A DNA stretch of 64,000 bases, taken from Streptomyces sp. TLI_105. GTDB taxonomy: Bacteria; Actinomycetota; Actinomycetes; Streptomycetales; Streptomycetaceae. Positions within the stretch are counted from its first letter, which is position 1. Each line of letters starts with the position of its first letter. Made by a program: the position numbers and the translations under genes. The notes below the pieces were generated by a model. The model was given only the letters and a program-made list of their open reading frames with translations, did not search any database and was not told the origin of the DNA. The DNA lies in the NCBI RefSeq assembly GCF_900105415.1, contig NZ_FNSM01000001.1, positions 372,001 to 436,000 of the forward strand, given 5' to 3'. Shown one piece after another: positions 7,766-29,037 of this stretch.

Positions 7766-7782
7766 TTCCCGGTGAGCGGGAA
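7766..7782 (+). promoter_or_regulatory. Steroid-island operator, site 1 (fadD3 promoter)
   Basis: TTCCCGGTGAGCGGGAA is a palindrome with 6-bp arms TTCCCG/CGGGAA and a 5-bp spacer. The identical 17-mer occurs at 29021-29037 before hsaE, and a 14/17 version at 19788-19804 before hsaA. The best -10 candidate, CAGGCT at 7814-7819, starts 31 bp after the site, the same spacing as at the other two promoters. A centre near -50 fits an activator-type site. The fadD3 start codon is 106 bp downstream. The protein that binds is not known; the island's IclR regulator is the first candidate. Confidence 0.7.
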
Positions 7783-7888
7783 CCTCCCCCTGCGCCGGGG
7801 CGCCTCTCCCTGTCAGGCTCCGATCCGCCGTGGTTCCACCGCCCGCGCCCCGCCGGGGGGCGGGGCAGCAGGGAGGACGTGACAGATC

Positions 7889-9421
7889 ATGAGGGGCGCG
7901 CAGACCATCGCCGGGCTCGCGGACTGGGCCGCGGAGCGGTACGGGGACGAGGAGGCCCTCGTCTTCGGGGAGGAGCGCTGGACGTTCGCGGAGCTCCGCG
8001 AACGGGTGGACCGGGCGGCACGCGCGGTGATCGCACAAGGGGTGCGCCCCGGTGACTCGGTCGCCGTGTGGGCCCCCAACAGCGCGCGCTGGGTGGTGGC
8101 CGCGCTCGGCGCGGTGGCGGCCGGCGGGGTGCTCGTCCCGGTGAACACCCGCTACAAGGCGGCCGAGGCCGCCGACATCCTGCGCCGTTCCCGGACCCGG
8201 CTGCTCTTCACCGAGCACGACTTCCTGGGTACGGACTACCGGGCGCTGCTCGCGGCCTCCGGGGAGGAACTCCCGCTCCTGGAGCGGACGGTGACGCTGC
8301 ACTCGACGGACTGGCCGCAGTTCCTGTCGGCGGCGGACCGGGTGACCGGGGAGGAGCGGCTTGCCCGTACCGCCGCCGTGCGCCCGGCCGACACCGCCGA
8401 CGTCCTCTTCACCTCCGGCACCACCGGCCGGCCCAAGGGCGTGCCCACCACCCACGGGCAGAACCTGCGCGTGTACGACGCCTGGGCCCGTACGGTCACC
8501 CTCCGGCGCGGCGACCGCCACCTCCTCGTCAACCCGTTCTTCCACACCTTCGGCTACAAGGCGGGCGTCCTCGCCTGTCTGCTGCACGGGGCCACGATCG
8601 TCCCGGAGCGGGTCTTCGACGCCGGGACCGTGCTCGGCCGGATACGGGACGAGCGCATCTCCGTCCTGACCGGCGCCCCGACGGTCTTCACCTCGCTCAT
8701 CCACCATCCCGAGCGCGAGGCGTACGACCTGACCTCGATGCGGATGGCGGTCACGGGCGCGGCGAACATCCCCGTCACGCTCATCGAGGAGATCAGGACG
8801 TCCCTCGGCGCCCGGAGCGTCAACACCGCGTACGGCCTGACCGAGTCGACGGGCGTGGTCGCGATCTGCCCGCCGCACGAGTCGCCGGAGACCCTGGCCC
8901 GCACCTCCGGGACGGCCCTGGAGGGCACGGAGCTGCGCGTCGACGCCCCGCCCGGGGAGCCGGGCGAGATCCTCACCCGCGGCTACCACGTGATGCACGG
9001 CTACCTCGACGACCCCGAGGCCACCGCCCGGGCCGTCGACGCGGAGGGCTGGCTGCACACGGGGGACGTCGGGGTGCTCGACGAGCGCGGGTTCCTGAGG
9101 ATCACCGACCGGCTCAAGGACATGTTCGTCGTGGGCGGGTTCAACGTGTACCCGGCGGAGGTGGAGCAGGTGCTGCGCGGCCACCCGGCCGTCCGGGACG
9201 CGGCGGTCGTCGGCGCGCCGGACGCACGGCTCGGGGAGATCGGCGTCGCGTACTGCGTACCGGCGGGCGGGGCTCCGATCGACGCGGCCGAGCTGACCGC
9301 GTACACCCGTGAGCGGCTGGCCAACTTCAAGGTCCCGCGCGCCTTCCGCTCCGTGCCGGCGCTGCCGCACAACGCGGCGGGCAAGGTCGACAAGAAGGCG
9401 CTGCGAGAGATCCCCGTATGA
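7889..9421 (+). CDS. fadD3: Acyl-CoA ligase, FadD3-like (HIP-CoA synthetase)
   Basis: A 510-aa adenylate-forming ligase. The P-loop-like AMP motif FTSGTTGRPKG lies near residue 175, with YGLTEST near 310, LHTGDVG near 385, and the C-terminal hinge and lysine in DRLKDMFVVGGFNVYPAEVEQ and NAAGKVDKK. Length and the FNVYPAEVEQ hinge match FadD3, which activates the C/D-ring propionate left after HsaD cleavage (HIP) with CoA and ATP. Another acyl-CoA ligase role cannot be excluded from motifs alone, but this is the only acid:CoA ligase in the steroid island. RBS GGGAGG precedes the ATG. BVMO follows after 33 bp in the same direction. Confidence 0.8.
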   Translation: MRGAQTIAGLADWAAERYGDEEALVFGEERWTFAELRERVDRAARAVIAQGVRPGDSVAVWAPNSARWVVAALGAVAAGGVLVPVNTRYKAAEAADILRRSRTRLLFTEHDFLGTDYRALLAASGEELPLLERTVTLHSTDWPQFLSAADRVTGEERLARTAAVRPADTADVLFTSGTTGRPKGVPTTHGQNLRVYDAWARTVTLRRGDRHLLVNPFFHTFGYKAGVLACLLHGATIVPERVFDAGTVLGRIRDERISVLTGAPTVFTSLIHHPEREAYDLTSMRMAVTGAANIPVTLIEEIRTSLGARSVNTAYGLTESTGVVAICPPHESPETLARTSGTALEGTELRVDAPPGEPGEILTRGYHVMHGYLDDPEATARAVDAEGWLHTGDVGVLDERGFLRITDRLKDMFVVGGFNVYPAEVEQVLRGHPAVRDAAVVGAPDARLGEIGVAYCVPAGGAPIDAAELTAYTRERLANFKVPRAFRSVPALPHNAAGKVDKKALREIPV

Positions 9422-9454
9422 CGTCCCCTTCCACCGGATGAGGAGAGTACGAAC

Positions 9455-11077: not shown

Positions 11078-11118
11078 CGGGGGGCCGGCACGGGCCGACC
11101 CGGCCCGTGAGAACGGCG

Positions 11119-11159
11119 GTGCGCCCCGCCCCCACCGGTCAGGTGGGGGCGGGGCGCAC
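11119..11159. terminator. Bidirectional terminator between BVMO and esterase
   Basis: A perfect 18-bp stem (GTGCGCCCCGCCCCCACC, 11119-11136, with 11142-11159) and a 5-nt loop lie between the two convergent genes. Confidence 0.85.
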
Positions 11160-11170
11160 GCGCGCGTACG

Positions 11171-11204
11171 TCCCGGTCAGCGCGGGGTCCCGGTCAGCGC
11201 GGGG
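11171..11204. repeat. 17-bp perfect tandem duplication over a stop codon
   Basis: TCCCGGTCAGCGCGGGG occurs at 11171-11187 and again at 11188-11204. The second copy encodes the last residues and the stop of the alpha/beta hydrolase; the first lies just beyond it, so it looks like a small slippage duplication of the gene end. Confidence 0.85.
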
Positions 11205-12108: not shown

Positions 12109-12868
12109 GTGTCGGCTCCTTTCGGGGTGAGGGCGGGCATGCGGCCCGCCGACGCGCCGCCGTCCACCGCGAGTTCGGCGCCGGACAGGTAGGAGGAGTC
12201 GTCGGAGGCGAGGAAGGCGACGAGGCGGGCGACCTCCTCGGGCTCCCCCACCCGTCCGAGCGGGGCGGCCGGATGTTCCCGGGTGCCCAGGTGCGCCGTC
12301 ATGGCGGTGGCGATGGCGCCGGGGTGGACGGAGTTGACCCGGATGCCGTCCGGGCCGAGCTCCAGGGCGGCCGTCCTGGTCAGGCCGCGCAGCCCCCATT
12401 TCGCGGCTCCGTACGCGCCGTGTCCCCAGATGCCCTGGAGGCCGGCCTGCGAGGAGATGTTGACGATGGACCCGCCGCCGCTCTCCTTCATCGCTCCGGC
12501 GACGGCGCGGACGCCGAGGAACGGGCCGATCAGGTTGACGCGGAGGATCGCCTCCAGGCGGGCCGGGTCCTCCTCGGTGATGGGCGAGGTGGAGTAGATC
12601 GCGGCGTTGTTGACGAGGACGTCGAGCCGGCCGAAGGCGTCCTGGGCGGCGGCCACGGCCGCCGCCCAGGACCGCTCGTCGGTCACGTCGTGGCGTACGA
12701 AGCGGGCGGCGGCTCCGAGGGAGGCGGCGGTCGCCTCTCCCTCCGGCTCCAGGACGTCGGTGAGGACGACCTTCGCGCCGAGGGCGGCGAACAGGCGGGC
12801 CTCTGCCTCGCCCATGCCGCGTGCCGCGCCGGTGACCAGCGCGACCTTTCCTGTCAGGTCGACGGGCA

Positions 12869-12869: not shown

Positions 12870-15327
<2,458 letters not shown>

Positions 15328-15396: not shown

Positions 15397-16266
15397 TCAT
15401 CGCGCGGTGATCCGCGCGTCGGTGAGGACCGGCGCGTCTCCGCGGTCCGCGGCCGTGGCCGTCAGCCGGTAGCCGTCGGGGGTGTCCCAGACGCGCAGCC
15501 GCAGGGTCTCCCCGGGGAAGAAGACCCCGGCGAAGCGGGTGCGGCAGGCGGCGACCGCGCTCGCGTCGCCGCCGAGGAGGCGGTCGGTGACGGCCTTGAC
15601 CACCATCCCGAAGGTGCAGAGCCCGTGCAGGACGGGCCGGTCGCGGCCCGCGCGCCGGGCGGTGGCGGGATCGGCGTGCAGCGGGTTCCAGTCGCCGGTG
15701 AGCCGGTAGAGCAGGGCCTGCTGACGGAGCGTCGGGATCTCGGCCACCAGATCGGGCTCGCGGTCGGGGGCGGGGAGGCGCTCGGAGGGGCCGCGGTCAC
15801 CGCCGAAGCCGCCCTCCCCGTGGACGAAGATCTGGTTGCGCTGGGTGACCAGCGGCTCGCCGTCCACGCCGAGGAGGGTGGACTCCTGGACGATGACGGC
15901 GGCCCTGCCCTTGTCGTGCACGGCCGCGGCTCGGGTGACCGCGGTCGCCCGGGCCGCGGTGGGCAGCGGGCGGTGCACGGTGATCTCCTGGCCGCCGTGC
16001 AGCACCTTCGCCAGGTCGATGTCGACGCCCGGCAGGTCGAAGACCTGGAAGCCGACGCCGCCGGTGCCGCCCGCGACGACCCCGAAGGTGGGCAGGACCT
16101 GGAGGCCCCGCTCGTGTCCTTCGTACACGTAGCGCAGTTCGCGCGGGTCGGTCTCGGGGACGCCGGCGCCGAGGGCGAGGTGGTAGAGCCGTACGTCGCG
16201 CTCGTCCCACCTGACGTCGGTGCGGACCGGCGGCGCGGAGGTCGCCTTCTCGACGTCGAGGGGCAT
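15397..16266 (-). CDS. Double hot-dog MaoC-type enoyl-CoA hydratase
   Basis: A 289-aa protein with two hot-dog domains. The C-terminal one carries the R-hydratase motif: LTGDWNPLHADPATARRAG followed by PVLHGLCTFG, with the catalytic Asp and His. The N-terminal half lacks it, as in Hsd4B-type two-domain hydratases of steroid side-chain or ring beta-oxidation. It hydrates a 2-enoyl-CoA to the (R)-3-hydroxy form. Its presence in the ring A/B operon, away from the other beta-oxidation genes, suggests a role with a propionyl-side-chain CoA ester; the SDR genes at 29.5-31.2 kb could act next. Start ATG shares one base with the hsaB stop. Confidence 0.85.
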   Translation of the reverse strand: MPLDVEKATSAPPVRTDVRWDERDVRLYHLALGAGVPETDPRELRYVYEGHERGLQVLPTFGVVAGGTGGVGFQVFDLPGVDIDLAKVLHGGQEITVHRPLPTAARATAVTRAAAVHDKGRAAVIVQESTLLGVDGEPLVTQRNQIFVHGEGGFGGDRGPSERLPAPDREPDLVAEIPTLRQQALLYRLTGDWNPLHADPATARRAGRDRPVLHGLCTFGMVVKAVTDRLLGGDASAVAACRTRFAGVFFPGETLRLRVWDTPDGYRLTATAADRGDAPVLTDARITAR

Positions 16267-16754
16267 CAGAAGGCCCCCACGGCGTAGCGGCTGCGGAAGA
16301 ACAGCAGCGGCCGGCCGTCCTCGCCCGCGTGGAGCGCCACCACCTGCGCGGTGACCAGGTGGTGGTCCCCGGCCTCGTAGACCGCGTCGAGTGCGCACTC
16401 CACGTGGGCGAGGGCTCCCTCGATGCGTACGGTGCCGTGCTCCCCGGCGCCCCAGGGGACCCCGGCGAACTTGTCGGGGCCGCTGCGGCCGAGCGCGGCG
16501 CAGGTGGTCTGCTGGTCCTCGGCGAGGATGTTGACGCAGAAGCGGCCCGCGCGCTCGATCCTCGGCCAGCTGGTGGAGTTCTTGCCGACGGCCAGCATGA
16601 CCAGCGGGGGGTCGAGGGAGAGGGAGGCGAAGGACTGGCAGGCGAAGCCGACGGGCTCCGCGCTGTCGGCGTCGAGCGTCGCCACCACCGTGATGCCGCT
16701 GGCGAAGCGGCCGAGCACGTCCCGGAACTCGGAGGGCGGGATCAGCCGTTCCAC
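16266..16754 (-). CDS. hsaB: Flavin reductase component of 3-HSA hydroxylase
   Basis: A 162-aa flavin-reductase-domain protein that supplies reduced flavin to HsaA. Typical features are FRDVLGRFASGITVVAT, the FACQSFASLSLDPPLVML flavin loop, and GRFCVNILAEDQ. It follows hsaC with a 13-bp overlap if the GTG at 16754 is used; no better start exists before the conserved IPPSEFRDVLGRF region. The order hsaA-hsaD-hsaC-hsaB is the standard actinobacterial order. This is the only flavin reductase of this type seen in the window, so it must serve HsaA and possibly the second HsaA. Confidence 0.9.
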   Translation of the reverse strand: MERLIPPSEFRDVLGRFASGITVVATLDADSAEPVGFACQSFASLSLDPPLVMLAVGKNSTSWPRIERAGRFCVNILAEDQQTTCAALGRSGPDKFAGVPWGAGEHGTVRIEGALAHVECALDAVYEAGDHHLVTAQVVALHAGEDGRPLLFFRSRYAVGAF

Positions 16755-17635
16755 TGGTGGCCCCAGAAGCTGTCGGCGGTGATCTCCTTCGCGACCCAGG
16801 TGGCGGGGTCGACGACGAGGCCGTCCCAGCCGTACTCGACCTGGAAGCCGCCGGGGGCCTGGGCGTAGAAGGACACCATGCGGTCGTTGGTGTGGCGGCC
16901 GAGGCTGGACGCGATGGGGATGCCGGCGGCGTGCATGCGGTCGAGGCCGCGGCCCACGTCGTCGAGGGTCTCCAGCTCCACCATGAAGTGCACGATGCCG
17001 GGGGGCAGCGCGCCCGGGTAGAGACCGAGGCTGTGGTGGCGGCGGTTGGGGCTGAGGAAGTGCATCCAGTGGAAGTACCGCTGCTCGGTGGCGGTCGGGA
17101 CGGCCTGCGGCGGCAGCTTCATCGAGTCGCGCAGCTGGAAGCCGAGCAGGTTCTCGTAGAAGTCGAGCGCGGCCTCGATGTCCGGCACGGGGATCACGAC
17201 GTGGCCGAGGCCCAGGTCGCCGGTGACGAAGCGGTTGCCGTACGGGGAGCCGAGCGCGGTGTGGTCCTGCGCCTGGCCCCAGTAGATCTCCAGCGGGTTG
17301 CCGCCCGGGTCCGTCACGTGGATCAGACCCTGGACGCGGCGCTCGGCGAGTTCTGCGGGGTGGGCGGCCTTGACGGCGACACCGGCCGCCTCCAGCTCCT
17401 CGGCGGCGCGGGCGAGTGCGGCGGCGTTCGCCACCTCCCAGCCGGCCGCGAGGAGCCGATCGCTCTCGCCCGCCTGGATGACGATGCGGTGGGCGCGGTC
17501 GTCCAGGCGGAGGCAGAGGGTGTCCTCGGTGGTGCCGGATGCCTCCACCATGCCGAGGACGTCGAGCGCGTAACGGCGCCACTCGTCCAGGGTGGTGGTC
17601 TCCAGGCGCAGGTAGCCGAGAGCACGGATGTCCAT
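16742..17635 (-). CDS. hsaC: 3,4-DHSA extradiol dioxygenase (iron-dependent)
   Basis: A 297-aa type I extradiol dioxygenase with two VOC-fold modules. HsaC opens the aromatised ring A of 3,4-DHSA by meta cleavage to 4,9-DSHA. The C-terminal module holds the metal ligands: the His of LGHVVIPVPD, the His of IVHFMVELETLDD and the Glu of GGFQVEYGWDG. The conserved Tyr lies between. Start ATG 17635 has an AGAGGTG RBS 7 bp upstream and avoids a weaker GTG at 17644. Flanked by hsaD (25 bp) and hsaB (overlap). Confidence 0.95.
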   Translation of the reverse strand: MDIRALGYLRLETTTLDEWRRYALDVLGMVEASGTTEDTLCLRLDDRAHRIVIQAGESDRLLAAGWEVANAAALARAAEELEAAGVAVKAAHPAELAERRVQGLIHVTDPGGNPLEIYWGQAQDHTALGSPYGNRFVTGDLGLGHVVIPVPDIEAALDFYENLLGFQLRDSMKLPPQAVPTATEQRYFHWMHFLSPNRRHHSLGLYPGALPPGIVHFMVELETLDDVGRGLDRMHAAGIPIASSLGRHTNDRMVSFYAQAPGGFQVEYGWDGLVVDPATWVAKEITADSFWGHQWNG

Positions 17636-17660
17636 GGTGTGCACCTCTTCGGTGGAAGGT

Positions 17661-18533
17661 TCAGTGGGAGAAGAAGTCGACGGCGAGGCGGTTGAACTCG
17701 TCGGCCTGCTCGGTCTGGGCCCAGTGGCCGCAGTGCGGGAAGACGTGCAGGCGGGCGTCGGGGATGGTCTTGAGGGCGACCAGCGCGCCGTCGAGGGGGT
17801 TGACGCGGTCCTCGCGGCCCCAGGTGAGGAGCACCGGGTGGGTGATCCGGTGGGCCTCGCGCCAGAGCATCGTGTCCCCGACCCAGGCCGGGTTGCCGAA
17901 CGAGGCCGCCATCCGGGCGCTGCCGAGCCGGGTGTCGGGGTCGGTGGCCGAGGCCCAGCGCTCCTCGACGAGTTCGTCGGTGACGATCGACTGGTCGTAC
18001 GCCATGACGCCGAGGAAGGCGCGCAGTTGCTCCCGGGTGGGCTCGGGCGAGGCGTTGAACTCGAAGAGCCGCTTGATGCCCTCGGTCGGGTCGGGGGCGA
18101 AGAGGTTGACGGAGACCCCGCCGGGGCCCATCAGGAGGAGCTTGCCGACCTTGTCCGGGTGGTTCAGGGCCATGCGGACGGCGGTGCCGCCGCCGAGGGA
18201 GTTGCCGATGAAGTGCGCGCGCCGGATGCCCAGCTCGTCCATGAGGGCGGCGACGGCGTCCGCGCTGTAGCTGAAGTAGTCCTTGTCGAGCTCCGGCTTG
18301 TCCGAGCGGCCGAAGCAGGGCTGGTCGACGAGCAGGGTGCGGAAGTGCTCGGCGAAGACGGGGAGGTTGCGGCCGAAGTTGCTCCAGGCGGAGGCGCCGG
18401 GGCCGCCGCCGTGCAGCATGATCACGACGGGCGCCTCGGCGGCCCGGCCGGCGGGCGCGGCCTCGTGGTAGTGGAGGGTGAGCCCGGCCGCCTCGGCGGT
18501 GCGGGAGGTCGACTCGTGGGTGAGCTCTGCCAT
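17661..18533 (-). CDS. hsaD: 4,9-DSHA meta-cleavage product hydrolase
   Basis: A 290-aa alpha/beta hydrolase of the C-C bond (MCP) hydrolase family. The oxyanion segment HGGGPGASAWSNF, the nucleophile elbow GNSLGGGTA, and the C-terminal HCGHWAQTEQADEFN with the catalytic His define the family; the acid lies in WGREDRVNP. HsaD splits 4,9-DSHA into HIP and 2-hydroxyhexa-2,4-dienoate, the branch point feeding FadD3 and HsaE respectively. It lies 12 bp after hsaA and 25 bp before hsaC. Confidence 0.95.
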   Translation of the reverse strand: MAELTHESTSRTAEAAGLTLHYHEAAPAGRAAEAPVVIMLHGGGPGASAWSNFGRNLPVFAEHFRTLLVDQPCFGRSDKPELDKDYFSYSADAVAALMDELGIRRAHFIGNSLGGGTAVRMALNHPDKVGKLLLMGPGGVSVNLFAPDPTEGIKRLFEFNASPEPTREQLRAFLGVMAYDQSIVTDELVEERWASATDPDTRLGSARMAASFGNPAWVGDTMLWREAHRITHPVLLTWGREDRVNPLDGALVALKTIPDARLHVFPHCGHWAQTEQADEFNRLAVDFFSH

Positions 18534-18545
18534 CGTCGGCGCCTC

Positions 18546-19712
18546 TCAGGCCATGGTGTCTTGGATGTCGATGCCGAGCGCGCTCTGCCCGTACATGACG
18601 AGGGCCCGCTCGGGGTCGTTGGCGGCGTGGCCGCGGCCGGTGTGGGCGTCGCGCCAGGCGCGCTGGACGAGGCCGGGGCCGGTGCGCATGGCGCTGCCGC
18701 CGGAGTTCTCCATGAGCAGGTCGACCGCGGCGACGGAGCGTTCGGTGGCGAGCACCTGGTCGCGGCGGGTGCGCGTGCGCAGCTCCATCGGGATCTCCTC
18801 GCCGTGCTCGGCGAGGGCGTACATCTCGCCCATGTTGCGGGTCAGCTGCAGCCAGCTCGCGTCGATGTCGCTGGCGGCGCGGGCGATGCGGACCTGTGCG
18901 AAGGGGTCCTCGGCGACCTTCTGCCCGTACGAGACGCGGAACCGCTGCCGGGTGGCCTCGGCGTAGGAGTCGAAGGCGCCCTCGGCGATGCCGACGATCG
19001 GGGTGGAGATGGTGGTGGTGAACACCCCGGCGTACGGCAGCCGGTACAGCGGCTCGGGGTTGACCTCGTGGCCGGGCACCTTCAGGGCGGTGACCGGGCC
19101 GAAGCTCAGGGCGCGGTGGTCGGGGACGAAGACGTCCTCGACGACGACGTCGTTGCTGCCGGTGCCGCGCAGGCCGACGGTGTCCCAGACGTCGTCGACG
19201 CGGTAGTCGGACCGGGGGATCAGGAAGGTGCGCATGTCGACCGGGTTGCCCTCGCCGTCGGTGACGAGGCAGCCGAGGAGCGCCCAGCGGGCGTGGTCGC
19301 AGCCGGAGGAGAAGTGCCACCGGCCGGAGAGCCGGAAGCCGCCGTCGACGGCGGTGGCCTTGCCGGTGGGGGCGTACGAGGAGGCGATGCGGGTCTTGGG
19401 GTCCTGCCCCCACACCTCCTGCTGGGCGCGGGGGTCGAACAGGGCGACGTGCCAGGGGTGGACGCCGACCACGGAGGCGACCCAGCCGGTCGAGCCGCAC
19501 GCCTTGGCGATCTCCTTGACCGCCGTGTAGAAGACCACCGGGTCGGCCGCGCGGCCGCCGAAGGCCTTGGGCTGGAGCAGCTGGAAGAAGCCGGTGTCCT
19601 CCAACTCCTTGACGGAGGTGTCGGGCACGCGCCGCAGCGTCTCGGCCTCGGCCGCGCGGTCGCGCAGGGCGGGAGCGAGGTCACGGATCGCTGCCAGGAC
19701 GTCATCGGCCAT
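18546..19712 (-). CDS. hsaA: 3-HSA hydroxylase, oxygenase component
   Basis: A 388-aa flavin-dependent monooxygenase with the acyl-CoA dehydrogenase fold. It hydroxylates 3-HSA to the catechol 3,4-DHSA using reduced flavin from HsaB. FAD/FMN-fold landmarks are KACGSTGWVASVVGVHPW, GRWHFSSGCDHARWALLG, WDTVGLRGTGSNDV and RAWRDAHTGRGHAAND. It is the first gene of the nine-gene minus-strand operon running to the esterase at 11194. The operator at 19788-19804 and a TACGGT -10 box (19752-19757) lie upstream. A divergent-in-sequence paralogue lies immediately upstream at 20018. Confidence 0.93.
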   Translation of the reverse strand: MADDVLAAIRDLAPALRDRAAEAETLRRVPDTSVKELEDTGFFQLLQPKAFGGRAADPVVFYTAVKEIAKACGSTGWVASVVGVHPWHVALFDPRAQQEVWGQDPKTRIASSYAPTGKATAVDGGFRLSGRWHFSSGCDHARWALLGCLVTDGEGNPVDMRTFLIPRSDYRVDDVWDTVGLRGTGSNDVVVEDVFVPDHRALSFGPVTALKVPGHEVNPEPLYRLPYAGVFTTTISTPIVGIAEGAFDSYAEATRQRFRVSYGQKVAEDPFAQVRIARAASDIDASWLQLTRNMGEMYALAEHGEEIPMELRTRTRRDQVLATERSVAAVDLLMENSGGSAMRTGPGLVQRAWRDAHTGRGHAANDPERALVMYGQSALGIDIQDTMA

Positions 19713-19787
19713 GGGGCATCCCCTTTCGGGTCGTGGTGGGGGAATGCCAGGACCGTACGGCGTGCCGTACGGCGGCGAAATGCGCTG

Positions 19788-19804
19788 CTCCCACTGAGCG
19801 GGAA
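19788..19804 (-). promoter_or_regulatory. Steroid-island operator, site 2 (hsaA promoter)
   Basis: CTCCCACTGAGCGGGAA matches the fadD3/hsaE operator at 14 of 17 positions, with the asymmetric TGAGCGGGAA half fully kept. A -10 candidate TACGGT (19752-19757, read on the minus strand) begins 30 bp from the site. The hsaA start codon is 75 bp away, against 76 bp for hsaE. Imperfect arms suggest weaker binding. Confidence 0.6.
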
Positions 19805-20017: not shown

Positions 20018-21187
20018 TCAGAGCATCGGGTCGTGGACGTCCATGCCGAGGGCGTCCTGGGCGTAGAGGACCAGGGCCCGCTCCACGTCGTTGGCCGCCT
20101 GGCCGCGGCCGGTGTGCAGGTCGCGCCAGGCCCTCTGCAGGACGTCGTCGCCCACGCGCAGCGGCCCTCGGCCGGCGTTCTCCATGAGCAGGTCCACGGC
20201 GGTGATGGCGCGTTCGGTGGCGAGCGCCTGGTCGCGGCGGGTGCGGGCGCGCAGTTCCCTCGGGATCTCCGCGCCGCCGCGCGCGACCGCGTACAGCTCC
20301 GCCATGTTGCGGGCGAGCTGCAGCCGGGCGGCGTCGATCTCGCCGGCGGCGCGGGCGATGCGCACCTGGGCGAAGGGGTCCTCGGCGGCCCCCCGGCCGG
20401 GCTCGGCCCGGAGGCGCTCGCGGGCGGCGGTGATCTGGTCCTCGTGGGCGCCTTCGGCGATGCCGACCATCGCGGTGGAGATGGCGGTGGTGAAGACGGC
20501 CGCGTACGGCAGCCGGTACAGCGGTTCGGGGTGGACGTCGTGCCCGGGGCAGCGCAGCACGGTCACCGGGCCGTAGCCGAGCGCCCGGTGGGCGGGGACG
20601 AAGGCGTCCTCGACGAGGATGTCGTTGCTGCCGCTGCCGCGCAGCCCGACCGTGTCCCACACGTCGTCGACGCGGTAGTCGGCGCTCGGCACCAGGAAGG
20701 TCAGCATGTCGACCGGGCGGCCCTCGCCGTCGGTGACGAGACCGCCGAGGAGCGCCCAGCGGGCGTGGTCGCAGCCGGCGGAGAAGTGCCACCGGCCGGA
20801 GAGCCGGAAGCCGCCGTCGACGGGGGTGACCTTCCCGGTGGGGGCGTGGGAGGAGCAGATCCGGGTGGATTCGTCCGCGCCCCAGACCTCCTCCTGTGCC
20901 CGGGGGTCGAACTGGGCCACGTACCAGGGGTGGACGCCGAGGACCGACGCCGCCCAGCCGGTCGATCCGCAGGCCTTGGCGATCTCGTGCACGGCGGCGT
21001 AGAAGACGGCGGGGTCGGCGGCGAGTCCGCCGTACGCCCCGGGCCGGAGCAGCCGGAAGAAGCCGGCGGCCTCCAGTTCCCCGACGGAGGCGTCGGGCAC
21101 CCGGCGCAGGGCCTCCGCCTCGGCCGCGCGCTCGCGCAGGGCGGGGGCGAGGGCGCGGACCGCCGCGAGGACGTCGTCGTCGCACAT
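20018..21187 (-). CDS. Second HsaA-like flavin-dependent oxygenase
   Basis: A 389-aa paralogue of the neighbouring HsaA, similar along its whole length (by eye about two thirds identical). Shared blocks include EIAKACGSTGW, GGFRLSGRWHFS, YRVDDVWDTVGLRG and RAWRD. Differences cluster near the C terminus: the NSGGSAMRTG segment of HsaA is NAGRGPLRVG here, and GRGHAAND is GRGQAAND. It has no reductase partner of its own and is separated from hsaA by 305 bp, so it is probably a separate transcription unit facing the iclR gene. It may hydroxylate a variant phenolic intermediate, or be under relaxed selection. Confidence 0.85.
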   Translation of the reverse strand: MCDDDVLAAVRALAPALRERAAEAEALRRVPDASVGELEAAGFFRLLRPGAYGGLAADPAVFYAAVHEIAKACGSTGWAASVLGVHPWYVAQFDPRAQEEVWGADESTRICSSHAPTGKVTPVDGGFRLSGRWHFSAGCDHARWALLGGLVTDGEGRPVDMLTFLVPSADYRVDDVWDTVGLRGSGSNDILVEDAFVPAHRALGYGPVTVLRCPGHDVHPEPLYRLPYAAVFTTAISTAMVGIAEGAHEDQITAARERLRAEPGRGAAEDPFAQVRIARAAGEIDAARLQLARNMAELYAVARGGAEIPRELRARTRRDQALATERAITAVDLLMENAGRGPLRVGDDVLQRAWRDLHTGRGQAANDVERALVLYAQDALGMDVHDPML

Positions 21188-21247
21188 GGGCGCCCCTCTC
21201 GGATCCGGTCCGGTCGTGCCGTGACGAGAAGGAACCTACGCGTTACT

Positions 21248-21262
21248 GTTCCGAGACGGAAC
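21248..21262. promoter_or_regulatory. 15-bp palindrome between hsaA2 and iclR
   Basis: GTTCCG-AGA-CGGAAC has perfect 6-bp arms and a 3-bp spacer, 60 bp upstream of the second hsaA. IclR-family operators are commonly palindromes of about this size, so an autoregulatory site is likely. It is related to, but shorter than, the TTCCCG-N5-CGGGAA motif of the other island promoters. Confidence 0.5.
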
Positions 21263-21293
21263 TCCCCCTTCCCAGCGCCCGTCATCCTCTGGC

Positions 21294-21317
21294 AATCTCC
21301 ACGCAATACCGGAGATT
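21294..21317. promoter_or_regulatory. Inverted repeat near the iclR start
   Basis: AATCTCC (21294-21300) and GGAGATT (21311-21317) form a perfect 7-bp inverted repeat around a 10-bp spacer, 51 bp before the iclR start codon. It may be a second operator or a leader hairpin. It is AT-richer than the surroundings. Confidence 0.35.
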
Positions 21318-21368: not shown

Positions 21369-22247
21369 ATGACGACCAGTGCTGTCGAGCCTGTCGAGGC
21401 CGGGATGCCGCCTCTGTCCCTGCTGGAGAAGGCGGCGAAGGTGCTGAGCGCCTTCGAGAGCGCGGGGCCCCGGCTCACCCTCACCGAGGTCGTGCAGCGC
21501 TCGGGCATCCGCCGCTCCTCCGCGCACCGCATCCTCGACCAGCTGGTGCAGCTGCGCTGGCTGGAGCGCGAGGGCCGCGACTACCGTCTCGGCATGGGCA
21601 TGCTGGAGCTCGGCGCCATGGCCTCGCACCACAACCGGCTCCGCCGGGCGGCACTGCCCCATCTGCACGCGCTGCACGAGTCCACCGGCCACCTGGTGCA
21701 CCTGACGGTGCTCGACGGCTCCGAGGTGGTCTATCTGGAGCGCATCGGCGGTTCGGACGACTCCGTCGTGCCCTCGCGCATGGGCGGGCGGCAGCCGGCG
21801 TACTGCACGGCCTCGGGCAAGGCGATCCTGGCCTTCGGCGACGGAACGCCGGTGGAGCAGGTGATCCGGGACGGGCTGCGGGCACGTACCCCGCGCACCA
21901 TCACCCGCCCCGAGTCCTTCCGCCGTGAGCTGGCGATGACGCGGGAGCGCGGCGTGGCCTTCGACCACGAGGAGGGGTACCGGGGGGTCTTCTGCGTGGC
22001 CGCCCCGCTGCGCGGCGCCGGCCGGGCCATCGCCGCGATCTCGGTGAGCGGCCACGGCGTCCACCGGGAGATGGAGCGGCTGGCCCCGGCCGTGCGCGGC
22101 TGCGCGCGGTCGGTGTGGCAGTCGATGTTCGGGCCGGGGCGGCAGCCGGAGAAGCGGGCCCAGCCGGTCGGCGCGGGGCCCGTGGGGCTTCCGCAGCCCT
22201 CGATGGACAACATGATGGCCTGGCTGCGCTTCAGCGACTGGATGTGA
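21369..22247 (+). CDS. IclR-family transcriptional regulator
   Basis: A 292-aa regulator. The N-terminal winged HTH (SLLEKAAKVLSAFESAG, then RLTLTEVVQRSGIRRSSAHR) is followed by the IclR effector domain with LHESTGHLVHLTVLDGSEVVYLERI and AYCTASGKAILAF. The last 35 residues, ending LPQPSMDNMMAWLRFSDWM, extend past the domain. ATG 21369 has GGGAGG 6 bp upstream. It is divergent from the second hsaA and sits between the two halves of the ring A/B gene set, so it is the prime candidate regulator of that set. Mycobacteria and rhodococci use the TetR protein KstR here. Its 3' end overlaps the convergent SRPBCC gene by 17 bp. Confidence 0.9.
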   Translation: MTTSAVEPVEAGMPPLSLLEKAAKVLSAFESAGPRLTLTEVVQRSGIRRSSAHRILDQLVQLRWLEREGRDYRLGMGMLELGAMASHHNRLRRAALPHLHALHESTGHLVHLTVLDGSEVVYLERIGGSDDSVVPSRMGGRQPAYCTASGKAILAFGDGTPVEQVIRDGLRARTPRTITRPESFRRELAMTRERGVAFDHEEGYRGVFCVAAPLRGAGRAIAAISVSGHGVHREMERLAPAVRGCARSVWQSMFGPGRQPEKRAQPVGAGPVGLPQPSMDNMMAWLRFSDWM

Positions 22248-23635: not shown

Positions 23636-23648
23636 GACGGTCTCCTCG

Positions 23649-24695
23649 TCAGGAGTAGGTGATCTCGACCCGGTCGGTGAGGGGGAGGGCCTGGCAGGCC
23701 AGGACGTACCCCTCGGCGATGTCCTGGTCGTCCAGGACGTCGTTGCGGAGCATCTTGACCTCGCCGGCCACGACACGGCAGGTGCAGGCGCTGCAGGCGC
23801 CCTCCCGGCAGGAGTACGGGGCGTCCACACCCGCGGCGATGAGCACGTCGAGCAGGGGCGCCGTCGGCGGCCAGGCGACCGTGCGGGTCTCGCCGTCGAG
23901 CTCGACCTCGGCGGTCGCACCGCCCTCGGTCGCCGTGTCCTGCGGCACCTCGGGGGCGTCGAAGACGTCCGCGCCGAGGGAGAAGAACCGCTCCCGGTGG
24001 ATGCGGTCGCCGGGCGCGCCGAGCGTGCGCAGGGCCTGCTCGACGGCGTCCATGAGCGGCTGCGGGCCGCATACGAAGGCCTCGCGGTCGGCGTACGGCG
24101 CGAGCGCGGCGGCCAGCCGGTCCACGGAGGGCAGGCCCTGGAGCGACTCCAGCCAGTGGAGCACGAGCAGCCGGTCCGGGTGGTCCTGGGTCAGTGTCCG
24201 CAGTTCGTCGCGGAAGACGACCGAGGACTCGTCGCGGTTGGCGTACAACAGCACCACCCTGCCCCGGCCGTCGGCCAGGGCCGACTTGGCGATCGACAGG
24301 ACCGGGGTGATGCCGCTGCCTCCGGCGACGAGCAGCAGGTCGTCGTCGAGGGAGTCCGGGGTGAAGGTGCCGGCCGGGGGCAGCACCTCCAGCTCGTCCC
24401 CGGCCGCCAGCCGGTCGCAGACCCAGTTGGAGCCGTACCCGCCGGCGACCCGCTTGACGGTGATCTTCAGGGGCTCGCCGGTGTGGGGCGAGCTGGCGAG
24501 GGAATAGCAGCGGGCGGCCGGCCTCCCGTCGGCACCGGGCAGCTTCAGGGTGAGGAACTGCCCGGGGCGGTACGTGAAGCGGTCCGCGCTCTCCGCCGGT
24601 GCCTGGAGCACCAGGGAGTGCGCGTCGGCCGTCTCGGCGATGACCTCGACGACGCGCAGCCGGTGGGTGCGAGAGCTGGTCGTGGGCTCAGGCAT
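23649..24695 (-). CDS. kshB: 3-ketosteroid 9alpha-hydroxylase, reductase component
   Basis: A 348-aa iron-sulfur flavoprotein reductase. Domains in order: FAD-binding barrel (ARCYSLASSPHTG), NAD-binding domain (LLLVAGGSGITPVLS and YANRDESSV), and a C-terminal plant-type [2Fe-2S] ferredoxin domain with CREGACSACTCRVVAGEV and a distant fourth Cys in VLACQALP. It passes electrons from NADH to KshA. Its start overlaps the small upstream gene by 8 bp, and kshA lies just before that. Confidence 0.93.
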   Translation of the reverse strand: MPEPTTSSRTHRLRVVEVIAETADAHSLVLQAPAESADRFTYRPGQFLTLKLPGADGRPAARCYSLASSPHTGEPLKITVKRVAGGYGSNWVCDRLAAGDELEVLPPAGTFTPDSLDDDLLLVAGGSGITPVLSIAKSALADGRGRVVLLYANRDESSVVFRDELRTLTQDHPDRLLVLHWLESLQGLPSVDRLAAALAPYADREAFVCGPQPLMDAVEQALRTLGAPGDRIHRERFFSLGADVFDAPEVPQDTATEGGATAEVELDGETRTVAWPPTAPLLDVLIAAGVDAPYSCREGACSACTCRVVAGEVKMLRNDVLDDQDIAEGYVLACQALPLTDRVEITYS

Positions 24696-25020
24696 CGTCA
24701 GCCTCCGTGGTTGCGGTACCTGCCCTGCCGGGCTCCGGGGAGCCGGGCAGGGAGGTTCCGGACTCCAGGGAGCCGGACTCCGAAGTGCCCGACTCCAGGG
24801 TGCCGACCGTCAGGGTTCCGTCCTCCACCGCGCGGTCGATGCTCGCCCGCAGGGCCCGGCAGGTCCGCATCCGGGCGGTGGTCACGCCCGGGCGCACCCG
24901 GTCGCGGAACTCCGCGCAGGCGACGGCCGCGTCGGCCGTCCACTGCACGGAGGTGTGGGCGACGCTGAACTTCTCGCACAGGACCTGGTTGCCGCAGGCC
25001 GCGCACTCCACCGCTCGCAT
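24688..25020 (-). CDS. Small Cys-rich protein between kshA and kshB, unknown
   Basis: A 110-aa protein I do not recognise. The first 57 residues hold C6-x2-C9-x5-C15, His22, C35 and C54, a spacing that could bind zinc or an iron-sulfur cluster; the start is MRAVECAACGNQVLCEKFS. The last 40 residues are a low-complexity Glu/Ser/Gly/Thr tail with repeats of the form LESGTSES. ATG 25020 follows the kshA stop by one base and the 3' end overlaps kshB by 8 bp, so it is translated between the two subunits of the Rieske hydroxylase. It could be an extra electron-transfer or assembly factor; no evidence beyond position. Confidence 0.75.
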   Translation of the reverse strand: MRAVECAACGNQVLCEKFSVAHTSVQWTADAAVACAEFRDRVRPGVTTARMRTCRALRASIDRAVEDGTLTVGTLESGTSESGSLESGTSLPGSPEPGRAGTATTEADDA

Positions 25021-25021
25021 G

Positions 25022-26176
25022 TCAGGCTCCGCTTTCCGTCTCCGCCGCGCGGCGCGCGAGGTTCTCCTCGACCTCGGCGCGCCATGCCGTGTTGGCGCGC
25101 TGGGTGTCGATCTCGAACTCGAAGCGACGGGTCATCTCGTCCTTGACGTCGGCGGCGTCGACGTAGAACTGCTCGTACCAGCGGCGCAGTTGGTAGACGG
25201 GTCCGTCCTCCTCGGTGAGCAGGGGATTGTCGATCCGGGTCTTGTTCCGCCAGATCTCCACGTCCTGCTCGAAGCCGACGGTGGCCCCCTCGGCGGTGAG
25301 CCGCGCGGCCTCCGCGGCCTGCGCGTCCGTCATCCCGGGCAGCCGCTTCACGATCGCCCCGTACTGGAGCAGGAAGCTGTTCGCGTCGATCGGGTAGTGG
25401 CAGTTGATCAGGACGATCTCCATCTCCGCGCCGCCGCCGACGTCGCTGTAGAGGTGGTCGATCATGTAGGAGGGGCCGTAGTAGGAGGCGTCGGAGCGCA
25501 GACGGCCGGAGCTGAGGGTGCCCAGTTCCATGTCCCCGCGGGGGCTGCTCTCCATGTACTGCGTGGCGACGTGGCCGTCGAAGACGTTCTTGAAGTACTC
25601 GGGGAAGGCGTAGTGGACGTAGTAGAAGTGCGCCATGTCCACGACGTTGTCCACGATCTCGCGGCAGTTGGCGCCCTCGACCCGGAGGGTCTTCCAGGTC
25701 CAGTCGCTCCACTGGTCGGCGTCCGGGCCGTGGATGCCCGCGATCTCGGGGACGGTCACCTCGGGGGGCGGGGGGTTGCCCTCCGGGTCGTTCCAGACGA
25801 AGAGCTGCCTGTTCCGCTCCAGGGAGGTCCAGGCGCGGGTCCTGGCGCGCGGGGGGACCCGGCGGGCGTACGGGATCCCGGCGCAGCGACCGTCGCCCGA
25901 CCAGCGCCAGTCGTGGAAGGGGCAGGCGACGGCGTCGCCCTTCACGCTGCCCTGGGCGAGGTTGCCGCCCATGTGCGGGCAGTAGGCGTTCAGGACGTGC
26001 AGCAGGCCGTCGTCCTGTCCCTGGAAGACCACCAGCTTGGTGCCGAAGGCCTCGATCTCGTGCGGCTTTCCGTCCTTGAAGGCTTCGGCGAGGCCGAGGC
26101 AGTGCCAGCCGCGGGCGAACCGCGTCGGCGGCCTGCCCGCGTCGATGACCCGGACCTCGTCGTTGAGAGCAGTCAT
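25022..26176 (-). CDS. kshA: 3-ketosteroid 9alpha-hydroxylase, Rieske oxygenase component
   Basis: A 384-aa Rieske non-haem iron oxygenase. The N-terminal Rieske motif CPHMG...CPFHDW (Cys-x-His and Cys-x2-His) is intact. The mononuclear iron site follows in EIVDNVVDMAHFYYVHYAFP (the two His, with the conserved Asn/Asp bridge), with the remaining acid ligand further on. KshA hydroxylates C9 of 3-ketosteroids; together with KstD this triggers ring B opening and ring A aromatisation. It lies 31 bp after hsaF in the hsaE-led operon. Confidence 0.95.
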   Translation of the reverse strand: MTALNDEVRVIDAGRPPTRFARGWHCLGLAEAFKDGKPHEIEAFGTKLVVFQGQDDGLLHVLNAYCPHMGGNLAQGSVKGDAVACPFHDWRWSGDGRCAGIPYARRVPPRARTRAWTSLERNRQLFVWNDPEGNPPPPEVTVPEIAGIHGPDADQWSDWTWKTLRVEGANCREIVDNVVDMAHFYYVHYAFPEYFKNVFDGHVATQYMESSPRGDMELGTLSSGRLRSDASYYGPSYMIDHLYSDVGGGAEMEIVLINCHYPIDANSFLLQYGAIVKRLPGMTDAQAAEAARLTAEGATVGFEQDVEIWRNKTRIDNPLLTEEDGPVYQLRRWYEQFYVDAADVKDEMTRRFEFEIDTQRANTAWRAEVEENLARRAAETESGA

Positions 26177-26207
26177 CTCGTCCCTCCGGTTGCTGTCTCT
26201 GTTCGGT

Positions 26208-27230
26208 TCAGTGCTGTGCGGCGAGTTCGACGGCGATGTCGATGAGCTGGTCCTCCTGGCCGCCGACCAGGCGGCGCTCGCCGGCGCGCAGGAGGATCTC
26301 GGCGCCGGAGACGCCGTAGCGCTCGGCCTGCCGGTAGGCGTGCTTGAGGAAGCTGGAGTAGACGCCGGCGTGGCCCATCAGGAGGGCGAGCCGGTCGAGC
26401 CGGCACTCGTCGTCCATGACGGGGCGGACCACGTCCTCGGCCGCGTCGATGATCTTCAGTACGTCGACGTCGGTACGGATGCCCATCTTGGCGCAGACGG
26501 CGACCAGGGCCTCGACGGCGGTGTTGCCCGCCCCGGCGCCGAGCCGGCGGGTGGAGCCGTCGATCTGCAGGGCTCCGGCCTTGATGGCGGCGATGGAGTT
26601 GCCGGTGCCGAGGGCCAGGTTCTCGTGACCGTGGAAGCCGACCTGGGCGTCGTCGCCGAGCTCGGAGACCAGGGCCTCGACCCGGGCGGTGACGTCGTCC
26701 ATGACCATGGCGCCGGCCGAGTCGACGACGTACACGCACTGGCAGCCCGCGTCGGCCATGATCCTGCCCTGCCGGGCCAGCTTCTCGGGGGTCGTGGAGT
26801 GGGCCATCATCAGGAAGCCGACGGTCTCCAGGCCCATCTCCCGGGCGAGGCCGAAGTGTTGGTCCGCGATGTCGGCCTCGGTGCAGTGGGTGGCGATGCG
26901 GCAGATGCCCGCGCCGTTGCCGTGGGCGGCCCGGATGTCGTCCTTGACGCCGAGTCCGGGCAGCATCAGGAAGGCGATCCGGGCCCTCCGCGCGGTCTCC
27001 ACCGCGACCTTGATCAGCTCCTGCTCGGGGGTCTTGGAGAAGCCGTAGTTGAAGGAGGATCCGCCGAGTCCGTCGCCGTGCGTCACCTCGATCACGGGGA
27101 CGCCGGCGTCGTCGAGGGCGGCGACGACGGACCGTACGTCGTCGGTGGTGAACTGGTGCCGCTTGGCGTGCGAGCCGTCGCGCAGCGAGGAGTCGGTGAT
27201 CCGGATGTCGAGGGTGTCCGAGTAGGGCAT
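26208..27230 (-). CDS. hsaF: 4-hydroxy-2-oxohexanoate/valerate aldolase
   Basis: A 340-aa HMGL-like/DmpG-type aldolase. The metal-binding [11 protein letters not shown] motif is near residue 15, HGDGLGGSS near 53, [10 protein letters not shown] and [12 protein letters not shown] in the middle, and the DmpG communication domain at the C terminus. HsaF cleaves the hydroxy-oxo acid from HsaE into pyruvate and an aldehyde. The aldehyde is passed to HsaG in a stable complex. 12 bp after hsaG. Confidence 0.95.
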
Positions 27231-27242
27231 GCGATGTGCTCC

Positions 27243-28154
27243 TTACGCGCCCGGGGCGAGGAGCGCCTTGGCGAACTCCTCGCCGACCTTGGTGGCGGCG
27301 GCGGTCATGATGTCGAGGTTTCCGGCGTAGGGCGGCAGGTAGTCGCCCGCGCCCTCCACCTCCAGGAAGATCGCGACGCGTGCCGTCCCGCCGTTCTCGG
27401 GGCTCGGGTCGTCGAACTGCGGTTCGGCGCGCAGCCGGTAGCCGGGGACGTACGTGGCGACCTGCTCGGCGATCTCCTTGACGGAGAGGGTGATGGCGTC
27501 CCGGTCGGCGTCCTCGGGGATGGCGCAGAAGACGGTGTCGCGCATGATGACGGGCGGCTCGGCCGGGTTGAGGATGATGATGGCCTTGCCGCGCCCGGCG
27601 CCGCCGATGGTCTCGATGCCGCGTGAGGTGGTGCGGGTGAACTCGTCGATGTTCGCCCGGGTTCCGGGGCCGGCCGAGACGGAGGCCACCGAGGCGACGA
27701 TCTCCGCGTACGGCACGGGGACGACGCGCGAGACCGCGTACACCATGGGGATGGTGGCCTGTCCGCCGCAGGTGATCATGTTGACGTTGGGCCGGTCGAG
27801 GTGCTCGTGGAGATTGGCGGGCGGTACGACGGCGGGGCCGACGGCGGCCGGGGTCAGGTCGACCGCCTTGATGCCGAGCTCCGCGTAGCGCGGGGCGTTG
27901 GCCCGGTGGACGTAGGCGCTGGTGGCCTCGAAGACGATGTCGGGCCTCTCGTCCTGGGCGAGCAGCCGGTCGACGCCTTCGTGGCTGGCCTCCAGGCCGG
28001 CGCGGGCGGCGCGGGCGAGGCCCTCGCTGTCGGGGTCGACGCCGATCATCCAGCGGGGTTCGACGTGCTCGGAGCGCAGCAGCTTGTACAGCAGGTCGGT
28101 GCCGATGTTGCCGGAACCGACGATGGCGGCGGTCGCCTTTGTCTTGATGGTCAT
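27243..28154 (-). CDS. hsaG: Acylating acetaldehyde/propionaldehyde dehydrogenase
   Basis: A 303-aa CoA-acylating aldehyde dehydrogenase of the DmpF/BphJ type. The NAD motif [13 protein letters not shown] lies at the N terminus, and the catalytic Cys is in [12 protein letters not shown] near residue 130. It converts propionaldehyde (or acetaldehyde) from HsaF to the acyl-CoA. Start ATG 28154 gives the expected [14 protein letters not shown] terminus. It lies between hsaE (7 bp) and hsaF (12 bp), the standard order. Confidence 0.95.
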
Positions 28155-28161
28155 GATCACC

Positions 28162-28944
28162 TCAGATGAACGAGAGGGAGACGGAGCCAAGGCCGGTGAA
28201 CTCGGCGGTGAAGGTCGCCCCGGCCGCCACGTCGACGGCCCGGGTGCACGAGCCGGGCAGCACCACGTGCCCCTTCTTCAGGGGGACGCCGAAGCGGGCG
28301 ACGGTACGGGCGAGCCAGGCGACGGAGCGGGCCGGGTCACCGAGCACGGCGTCGCTGCGGCCCTCGGCGAGGAGCTCCCCGCCGGCGGTCAGCCGGGCGT
28401 CGATCGCCCTGAGGTCGAGCTCGCGGGGATCCCGGCCCTCCCCGATGACGTACCCGGCGGAGGAGGCGTTGTCCGCGATGGTGTCGGCGATGGTGATCCG
28501 CCAGTCCCGGATCCTGCTGTCGATCAGCTCCAGGGCGGGCACGACGCGCTCGGTCGCGGCGAGGACGTCCGCCGGGGTGCAGGTCTCGCCCGGCAGGTCG
28601 TCGCCGAGGACGAAGCCGACCTCGACCTCGACGCGGGGGTGGCAGTAACGGGCGACGGGGACGGGGTCGTGGGGCCGCAGCTCCATGTCGTGGAGCAGAT
28701 GGCCGTAGTCCGGTTCGTCGACGCCCATCATCCGCTGCATGACCGGCGAGGACAGGCCGACCTTGTGACCGCGCACCTCCGCGCCGGCCGCGAGGCGGTG
28801 GCGGATGTTGACGAGCTGGATCTCGTACGCGTCCTCGGTGCCGATGCCGGGGAACGCGTCGGTCAGCGGGGCGATCGGCGTGACGTGCTGTTCGGCGGAG
28901 CGGAGCAGCTCGGCCGCCTCGTGTCTCTGGCGGTCCGTGAGCAT
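28162..28944 (-). CDS. hsaE: 2-hydroxyhexa-2,4-dienoate hydratase
   Basis: A 260-aa hydratase of the MhpD/BphH/XylJ family. Metal-ligand region [15 protein letters not shown], the [17 protein letters not shown] segment and the C-terminal [19 protein letters not shown] are typical. It hydrates the dienoate from HsaD, giving HsaF its substrate. First gene of the operon hsaE-hsaG-hsaF-kshA-small gene-kshB-SDR-SRPBCC. RBS GGAGGG precedes the ATG. The upstream promoter has the TTCCCG operator and a TAGCCT -10 box (28984-28989). Confidence 0.94.
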
Positions 28945-29020
28945 GGCGGGTCCCTCCTGCGGGGCGGTTGGGGCTGTCCGGGGAGGCTAGGACGGGGCCG
29001 CCGCCTGCCGGGAGCGCCAG

Positions 29021-29037
29021 TTCCCGGTGAGCGGGAA
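29021..29037 (-). promoter_or_regulatory. Steroid-island operator, site 3 (hsaE promoter)
   Basis: TTCCCGGTGAGCGGGAA is base-for-base identical to site 1 at 7766-7782. On the minus strand the -10 candidate TAGCCT (28984-28989) begins 31 bp downstream, and hsaE starts 76 bp downstream. No TTGACA-like -35 is visible at the right place, which fits a promoter that depends on an activator bound at about -45 to -60. Confidence 0.72.

Follow-up and report, generated by a model that had tools for sequence, protein, structure and literature searches.

A 17-bp palindrome at a fixed distance from the -10 box marks steroid ring-degradation promoters in Streptomyces and points to a probable IclR-family activator

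In a 64,000-nucleotide stretch of the Streptomyces sp. TLI_105 genome (contig NZ_FNSM01000001.1, positions 372,001 to 436,000; hereafter the window), a cluster of steroid ring-degradation genes carries a 17-bp palindrome upstream of fadD3, hsaA and hsaE, each copy 30 or 31 bp from a candidate -10 box. An IclR-family protein encoded in the same cluster probably binds these palindromes near position -52 and activates the three genes, a position that assumes a transcription start about 7 bp after the -10 box. The sites, their conservation, their fixed spacing and their co-occurrence with the iclR gene are directly seen in the genomes compared. The genes fadD3, hsaA and hsaE are likely the first of three transcripts, each preceded by a site. 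The sites and candidate promoters in the window are as follows.

7766..7782, + strand: operator 1, TTCCCGGTGAGCGGGAA, no mismatch, upstream of fadD3.
7814..7819, + strand: -10 candidate CAGGCT of fadD3 and the Baeyer-Villiger-type monooxygenase (BVMO) gene, 31 bp after operator 1.
19788..19804, - strand: operator 2, TTCCCGCTCAGTGGGAG read toward hsaA, 14/17 of the 17-mer.
19752..19757, - strand: -10 candidate TACGGT of hsaA, 30 bp from operator 2.
29021..29037, - strand: operator 3, TTCCCGCTCACCGGGAA read toward hsaE.
28984..28989, - strand: -10 candidate TAGCCT of hsaE, 31 bp from operator 3.
21269..21285, - strand: eroded operator of hsaA2, in which one half-site, GGGAA, survives and the second is gone.
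21233..21238, - strand: -10 candidate TAGGTT of hsaA2, 30 bp away from this eroded site.

A preliminary description of this DNA had reported the 17-mer TTCCCGGTGAGCGGGAA unchanged at 7766-7782 and 29021-29037, with a 14/17 version at 19788-19804, and all three were found as described, the last of them as CTCCCACTGAGCGGGAA; the reported distances from operator to -10 (31 bp for fadD3, 30 bp for hsaA and 31 bp for hsaE) were likewise exact. The promoter at 21233-21285, before hsaA2, follows the same plan and is a fourth one that this description did not contain. The exact form TTCCCGNTNANCGGGAA is not scattered, occurring at 2 places in the 8.88 Mb genome, both in the window, with operator 2 two mismatches off, and window rows with at most 3 mismatches to the 17-mer numbered 6 against 0.29 expected, a count reached in 0/100 shuffles; these 6 rows correspond to 4 places, 2 of them counted on both strands. 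A match at 63599-63615, also within this limit, falls in the coding sequence of an aspartate ammonia-lyase-type gene and was rejected for that reason. In the window, the loose pattern TTCCC-N7-GGGAA was weakly enriched (4 places at up to 1 mismatch, matched by 5/100 shuffles) and occurred genome-wide at 14 places versus 9 for the reversed control; being near background, it was dropped as a definition of the regulon. The claim that the asymmetric centre TGAGC is kept did not survive comparison, holding solely in plus-strand letters and running in opposite senses relative to transcription at fadD3 and hsaE. The centre is variable in relatives (GGTGAGC, GCTCAGC, GGTCAGC, GCTGACC and GGTCACC), the near-constant bases being T at position 8 and A at position 10 (60/61 each), and in Actinomadura-type loci the arms persist despite A/T changes in the centre.

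The geometry was compared in 70 operator-promoter pairs, made non-redundant by keeping pairs of one gene type below 80% identity over 45 nt, drawn from 182 pairs, with the entries for IclR, BVMO, lip, hsaC and u40238 left out. A TANNNT hexamer begins at offset 30 (3 promoters), 31 (17) or 32 (35) in 55/70, and at no other start within 60 nt; by gene, it is present at offset 30-32 in 27/29 hsaA, 22/22 hsaE (at 31-32), 5/6 kshA and 1/1 hsaD promoters. The two hsaA entries lacking it, in loci L176 and L202, are extra upstream sites, the regular site also being present at both. An additional 17-bp site of this kind was observed in L176, L177 and L202, some 50-60 bp further upstream than the regular one of hsaA. 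On the opposite side of the operator TANNNT occurred 6 times, twice at 32 in hsaE promoters that share an operator with fadD3 (genome G103 and L208), once at 32 in L176, and otherwise at 11, 46 and 51, while none was found at 56 sides of 28 unrelated sites. Single operators lie between two divergent genes at offsets 31-32 in the pairs SDR1/SDR2 (G152, L202) and fadD3/hsaE (G103, L208). The fixed spacing proposed from the window extends to divergent promoters in which the distance from site to start codon varies from 42 to 168 bp and the flanks also diverge.

This constant distance from site to -10 across different promoters is the arrangement of an activator bound upstream of -35, with the 15/70 promoters lacking TANNNT including those of fadD3 and SDR genes. 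The earlier remark that no -35 is visible stands in part: there is no TTGACA-like box, but the T at offset 8, the expected start of a -35 element, is conserved in 52/61 promoters and may belong to a weak -35 or to another half-site. Taken together, the constant distance to -10, the absence of overlap with it and the use of one operator by two divergent promoters are best explained by an activator touching RNA polymerase. It is possible, but we consider it unlikely, that IclR instead binds these sites as a repressor released by a steroid intermediate, in the manner of KstR. Such a role would have a precedent, as passages of PMC1995591 describe KstR as a repressor, and the second palindrome of hsaA promoters, presented below, extends into the spacer between -35 and -10. 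However, the -10 and -35 positions both lie outside the 17-bp site, no good -35 was seen, and a strict 30-31 bp to -10 over several genes, in both directions from one operator, is a need of activators and not of repressors.

Scanning contigs with an alignment of 15 IclR proteins yielded 63 loci (L numbers), several of which repeat genomes of the genus sample introduced below (G numbers). They are mostly from Streptomyces, with some from Actinomadura, Actinocorallia and Microtetraspora and weak ones from Sciscionella, Rhodococcus and Mycobacterium. A site within 2 mismatches was found upstream (200-250 bp) of hsaA in 50/54 and of hsaE in 30/32, together 80/86 readable regions, compared with 0/86 for each of 19 shuffled palindromes and 2/308 upstream regions of the comparison genes hsaF, hsaG, hsaD, hsaC, kstD, SDR4, echA20 and kshB. 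By the same measure, sites precede kshA in 7/53 regions (kshA opens a transcript in some clusters), iclR in 21/49 and hsaA2 in 0/18. The 17 letters of operator 2 recur unchanged before hsaA in L163-L166, L168-L174, L176 and L177 and are one letter off in L167. The hsaA site is also present in Microtetraspora, Actinomadura and Actinocorallia loci in which IclR is 49-59% identical (L210, L212, L213, L215, L216, L217), as well as in L219, where IclR is 39% identical; L222, L223 and L225 each hold one or two places at 2 mismatches. That the repeats reflect chance or inherited, non-functional promoter similarity is hardly credible on these data. The loose pattern is indeed scarcely enriched and orthologous promoters share ancestry, but the flanks and the distances to the start codon diverge around a conserved motif and spacing, and the shuffled controls gave nothing in the same 86 regions.

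Co-occurrence with iclR was tested on the genus sample of 246 genomes only, the L loci having been fetched by IclR itself; the use of draft genomes, and of homology to place gene starts, is a source of noise. A match to hsaA (E <= 1e-100) is present in 22/246 genomes and an IclR ortholog (E <= 1e-88; next match 1e-57) in 16/246, all of them among the 22, and all 16 have a site within 2 mismatches before hsaA. The exact motif TTCCCGSTSASCGGGAA occurs in 24/246 genomes, namely the 16 with the IclR ortholog and 8/230 others (Fisher 1e-19 for 16/16 versus 8/230, uncorrected for shared ancestry), while its reversed control occurs in 8/246. It lies at the cluster in 15/16; in G175 the exact match is elsewhere (contig 22), and the sites at its cluster are 1 and 2 mismatches off. 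No site precedes hsaA in the five genomes that have a 56-58% identical hsaA but lack an IclR ortholog. Conservation in related clusters, which had been set as a check, is seen at the same genes: where the cluster is split (G012), each part has its own site, and the operator is also found upstream of fadD3 in G076, G103, G162 and G224.

Outside steroid clusters, the exact motif was encountered at 7 places (G197, G130, G071, contig 22 of G175, G108, G239 and G244), six of them in the genomes lacking the IclR ortholog, which were taken as chance, in line with the 8/246 genomes matching the reversed control; the 3 kb around these places contained no homolog of the window proteins used, save a 27% identical ligase in G108. 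Clusters with broken frames that retain the motif were also observed, in L095/L096 (G224; these may be assembly errors) and L093 (G157; this one looks decayed).

The gene encoding the proposed regulator is placed as follows.

21369..22247, + strand: IclR-family regulator gene, whose product is the proposed operator-binding protein (HTH_IclR and IclR_C domains scoring above their gathering thresholds; co-occurrence).

Its product belongs to the IclR family (PF09339, 53.7 bits; PF01614, 139.7 bits), and most of its relatives in the PDB are named IclR-family regulators; TIGR02431, the PcaR/PcaU/PobR subfamily, is its best NCBIfam match at 147.1 bits, below the cut-off of 284.75, which suggests a likeness in mode of action and not membership of that subfamily. 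Set by eye against the published group 1 IclR motif GKTYCRYW3-4RYGRAMC, the operator fits in its 17-bp frame, CCG/CGG core and central T/A, but has TTC/GAA in place of the outer GKT/AMC. Within 1.5 kb, iclR is divergent from hsaA or hsaA2 in 15/16 G records and 52/58 L records (IclR at least 50% identical), the exceptions being G152c, L188, L200, L203, L205, L211 and L214, some of them on short contigs. Three other regulator genes of the window were searched in the 15 other IclR genomes, all of which carry iclR by selection: relatives of at least 50% identity were found for the LysR gene (5136-6152) in 1/15 and for the TetR genes at 47351-48007 and 60668-61285 in 2/15 and 7/15, leaving 14, 13 and 8 genomes without one. 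None of the three can be the common binder, and of the four window regulator genes searched, IclR alone goes with the motif.

A regulator encoded elsewhere in the genome could bind the motif while the iclR gene merely travels with the cluster. This is improbable in our view, although co-occurrence inside one cluster cannot separate linked genes, the regulators compared are window genes only, and binding by IclR is itself predicted. Against it stand the genomes without close relatives of the LysR and TetR genes, the recurrent divergent placement of iclR, the IclR-type frame of the motif, and two second clusters (L203 and L205) in which an IclR paralog is accompanied by sites within 0-1 mismatch.

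Two further elements lie beside the operators of hsaA and hsaA2.

19776..19781, - strand: left part (ATTTCG) of a second palindrome beside the hsaA operator, fuller in many relatives.
21248..21262, - strand: second palindrome GTTCCGTCTCGGAAC in the hsaA2 promoter.

The element TTYCGNNNCGRAA (at least 8/10) is present in 28/52 distinct hsaA promoters, starting with its first T at offset 8 in 24 of them and at 9 in 4 and placing its centre 22 or 23 bp from that of the first palindrome; on the other side of the operator it is found in 8/61 and scattered. No second palindrome was found at that offset in 38 hsaE, 8 fadD3 and 7 kshA promoters. The survey of the family in PMC8222616 describes, in the parts consulted, tandem sites 18-22 nt apart and tetrameric binding, and the hsaA promoters, with a second palindrome about 22 bp off, have such a tandem arrangement. 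Among the 22 hsaA2 promoters, of which three loci repeat genomes of the G set, GTTCCGTCTCGGAAC is identical in 15 (window included) and has 1-3 changes in 7; at the -10 candidate, GCGTA-GTT is kept in most. All 18 hsaA2 upstream regions scored in the locus scan have more than 3 mismatches to the 17-bp motif, and in L176 and L177 the TCCC of the other operator half is still present. An inverted repeat, AATCTCC-N10-GGAGATT, was also observed between hsaA2 and iclR at 21294-21317, exact in 12/22 hsaA2 upstream regions.

Several observations weigh against IclR-mediated activation at these promoters. Promoters of orthologs share ancestry, so the counts are not independent trials. At fadD3, a site within 2 mismatches was found in 3/10 regions, less regularly than at the other two genes, and TANNNT is missing from all 6 fadD3 and all 6 SDR1/SDR2 promoters, where CA- or GA-led hexamers stand at offset 31-32 as judged by eye. 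Beyond 2 mismatches are 6/86 hsaA and hsaE regions; two of these are hsaE in L189 and L193, where a 2-mismatch site lies nearby (16431 and 16414), that of L193 being 269 bp upstream and outside the 250-bp scan. In L214 (IclR 53%) the locus holds no site, and in L211 (IclR 51%) the strict form was not seen before the hsaA-like gene, although the locus does hold places within 2 mismatches of a looser form. Conversely, G146 and G157, with no IclR ortholog, keep an exact site beside remnants of the cluster (hsaE and SDR4, respectively). Clusters of the G179 type, with a 39-41% identical IclR gene, have variant sites only. The hsaA2 gene adjoins iclR, yet only half of the 17-bp site remains there, and the outer bases TTC...GAA differ by eye from the GKT...AMC of the group 1 consensus. 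Finally, IclR binding, its effect on expression and the transcription starts are predictions made from sequence.

The activator role that the preliminary description had proposed from the operator geometry is nevertheless supported by the spacing, the conservation and the co-occurrence with IclR; IclR as the binder, activation, the ligand, the oligomer and autoregulation are what we infer. In the mechanism we propose, the 17-bp palindromes would be the operators of a cluster-specific regulon. The IclR protein would bind TTCCCG-NTNAN-CGGGAA, probably with one dimer on each palindrome, hence two dimers at promoters that have the second one. It would occupy about -61 to -44, centred near -52 and immediately before a poor -35 region. 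Upon a steroid-derived signal, it would bring RNA polymerase to the -10 box, at 30-31 bp from the site, and turn on the fadD3-BVMO, hsaADCB and hsaEGF-ksh transcripts. PcaU and PobR repress their own genes, and iclR itself may be controlled from the region that it shares with the divergent hsaA gene.

The cluster runs from fadD3 through the Baeyer-Villiger-type monooxygenase, a lipase, dehydrogenases, a kstD-like gene, hsaB, hsaC, hsaD, hsaA and hsaA2 to the divergent iclR gene, and beyond it through kshB- and kshA-like genes, hsaF, hsaG and hsaE to echA20- and ipdAB-like genes. Gene models came from a composition-based script and names from profile searches, several names being best matches below curated cut-offs. 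The genes downstream of the operators are as follows.

7889-9421, + strand: fadD3-type acyl-CoA ligase, NF005801 (FadD3 family) above cut-off.
9455-11077, + strand: Baeyer-Villiger-type monooxygenase (BVMO), similar to NF045818 but far below cut-off.
16266..19712, - strand: hsaA, hsaD, hsaC, hsaB operon (ring cleavage), NF045629 (HsaA) and NF045632 (HsaD) above cut-off.
20018..21187, - strand: hsaA2, second HsaA-type oxygenase gene, NF045629 above cut-off.
23649..28944, - strand: hsaE, hsaG, hsaF, kshA-like gene, small open reading frame and kshB-like gene, a putative operon by spacing.

HsaB (202.9 versus a cut-off of 230) and HsaC (379.8 versus 450) are best matches below cut-off, the HsaF- and HsaG-type families score above theirs, and hsaE, kshA and kshB, below their cut-offs, are named by similarity and place. 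Only some clusters have hsaA2 between hsaA and iclR. The gap between hsaE and SDR4 (29038-29511) contains many short GC-rich inverted repeats seen by eye, for example CCCGTGCGGGC. Further along, between SDR5 and echA20, the palindrome ACCTAACAAACGTTTGGTGGAA at 31272-31293 seems to be a separate lower-pathway operator; a core that matches it loosely is present in 36/42 regions upstream of echA20, among them that of G179, a genome without the IclR ortholog. Clusters such as that of G179 represent a second kind in the genus (L236, L237 and L238, corresponding to G179, G155 and G195), with their own 39-41% IclR gene and variant palindromes such as CTCCCGGTCAGCGGGAC.

The sites before hsaA were also compared with those of other genera, using the 28 best-scoring hsaA loci from the 55 genomes of other genera that gave a match. 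The KstR-type site AACNNGTT is present within 320 bp upstream of hsaA in 25/28 of these loci, often as GAGAACGTGTTCTA. In the set studied here it is present in 2/66 distinct regions upstream of hsaA, at about 290 bp in both cases. In the same 28 best-scoring loci, the 17-bp motif within 2 mismatches was never found before hsaA, L137 having one at 3. The enzymes are thus shared, while the control element is different. In the genome of that last locus (L245 and L137; G327, from a different genus), hsaA is preceded by a KstR-type site at -108 and by the 3-mismatch GTCCCACTGAGCGGGAC at -84, and the cluster has a 47% IclR gene, which is perhaps an intermediate state, or chance. The window itself contains no full TnnAACnnGTTnnA consensus of KstR. 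Among 57 PDB matches of the TetR gene at 47351 there is no KstR-named chain, the KstR gene itself not having been searched for in Streptomyces.

In the literature, five 17-mer strings gave no occurrence in the 5.39 million papers searched, with subscription journals mostly outside that scope, and the 11-mer GTGAGCGGGAA appeared in 10 papers, on unrelated subjects as judged by their titles. Among the titles listed from the same literature, none on such a regulator surfaced, in agreement with the statement that no motif of this kind has been described for steroid genes. The main text of PMC8222616, as distinct from its supplementary tables, does not use the word steroid, and the single mention of IclR in the portion of PMC8281962 covered is a reference.

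These findings suggest that steroid breakdown in many Streptomyces and some relatives is under a different regulator than in mycobacteria. We lean, with modest conviction, toward a scenario in which, in Streptomyces and some Actinomadura-type genera, the TetR repressor KstR has been replaced in the control of steroid ring degradation by an activator of the IclR family that uses a new type of operator, the genes being kept and the logic reversed from repression to activation. A likely regulator and operator can now be named for steroid catabolism in a genus without KstR-type sites before hsaA, which would provide an example of one pathway under two unrelated regulators, and the operator-promoter unit would be a short, defined element with which steroid-responsive expression or sensing could be built in Streptomyces.

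In mycobacteria, fadD3 belongs to the KstR2 regulon, but here it carries the 17-bp motif, from which the palindrome near echA20 differs. Likeness to KstR2 control of the lower pathway, as outlined in passages of PMC4810484, lies in the separate palindrome (31272-31293) of the neighbouring echA20-ipdAB genes, which is TetR-like in appearance only. In Rhodococcus ruber Chol-4, a figure legend of the genome paper PMC6498646 places iclR among the kshA, hsaC and hsaA genes of a steroid cluster, and the passages of that paper on iclR give no operator, regulon or function. As the survey sections of PMC8222616 describe, the IclR family includes both activators and repressors of neighbouring aromatic catabolism genes. 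The system proposed here resembles the PcaU/PobR/PcaR type in these sections in its place beside ring-cleavage genes, its group 1-like 17-bp frame and its tandem palindromes about two turns apart, but it differs in concerning steroid genes, in outer half-site bases of TTC/GAA instead of GKT/AMC, and in a fixed 30-31 bp to -10 in several operons. For the comparison with KstR, we take Rv3570c to be hsaA. According to the parts of PMC1995591 consulted, KstR is a TetR-family repressor whose site TnnAACnnGTTnnA has copies upstream of Rv3570c, was bound in gel shift and, at KstR's own promoter, partly overlaps the -10, where it represses. The likeness to that regulon, on the same passages, is a palindrome before the same ring-degradation genes, while the protein family and the motif are other ones, as the preliminary description had said of the motif, other genera carry the KstR-type site before hsaA, and the site described here lies upstream of -35 and not over -10.

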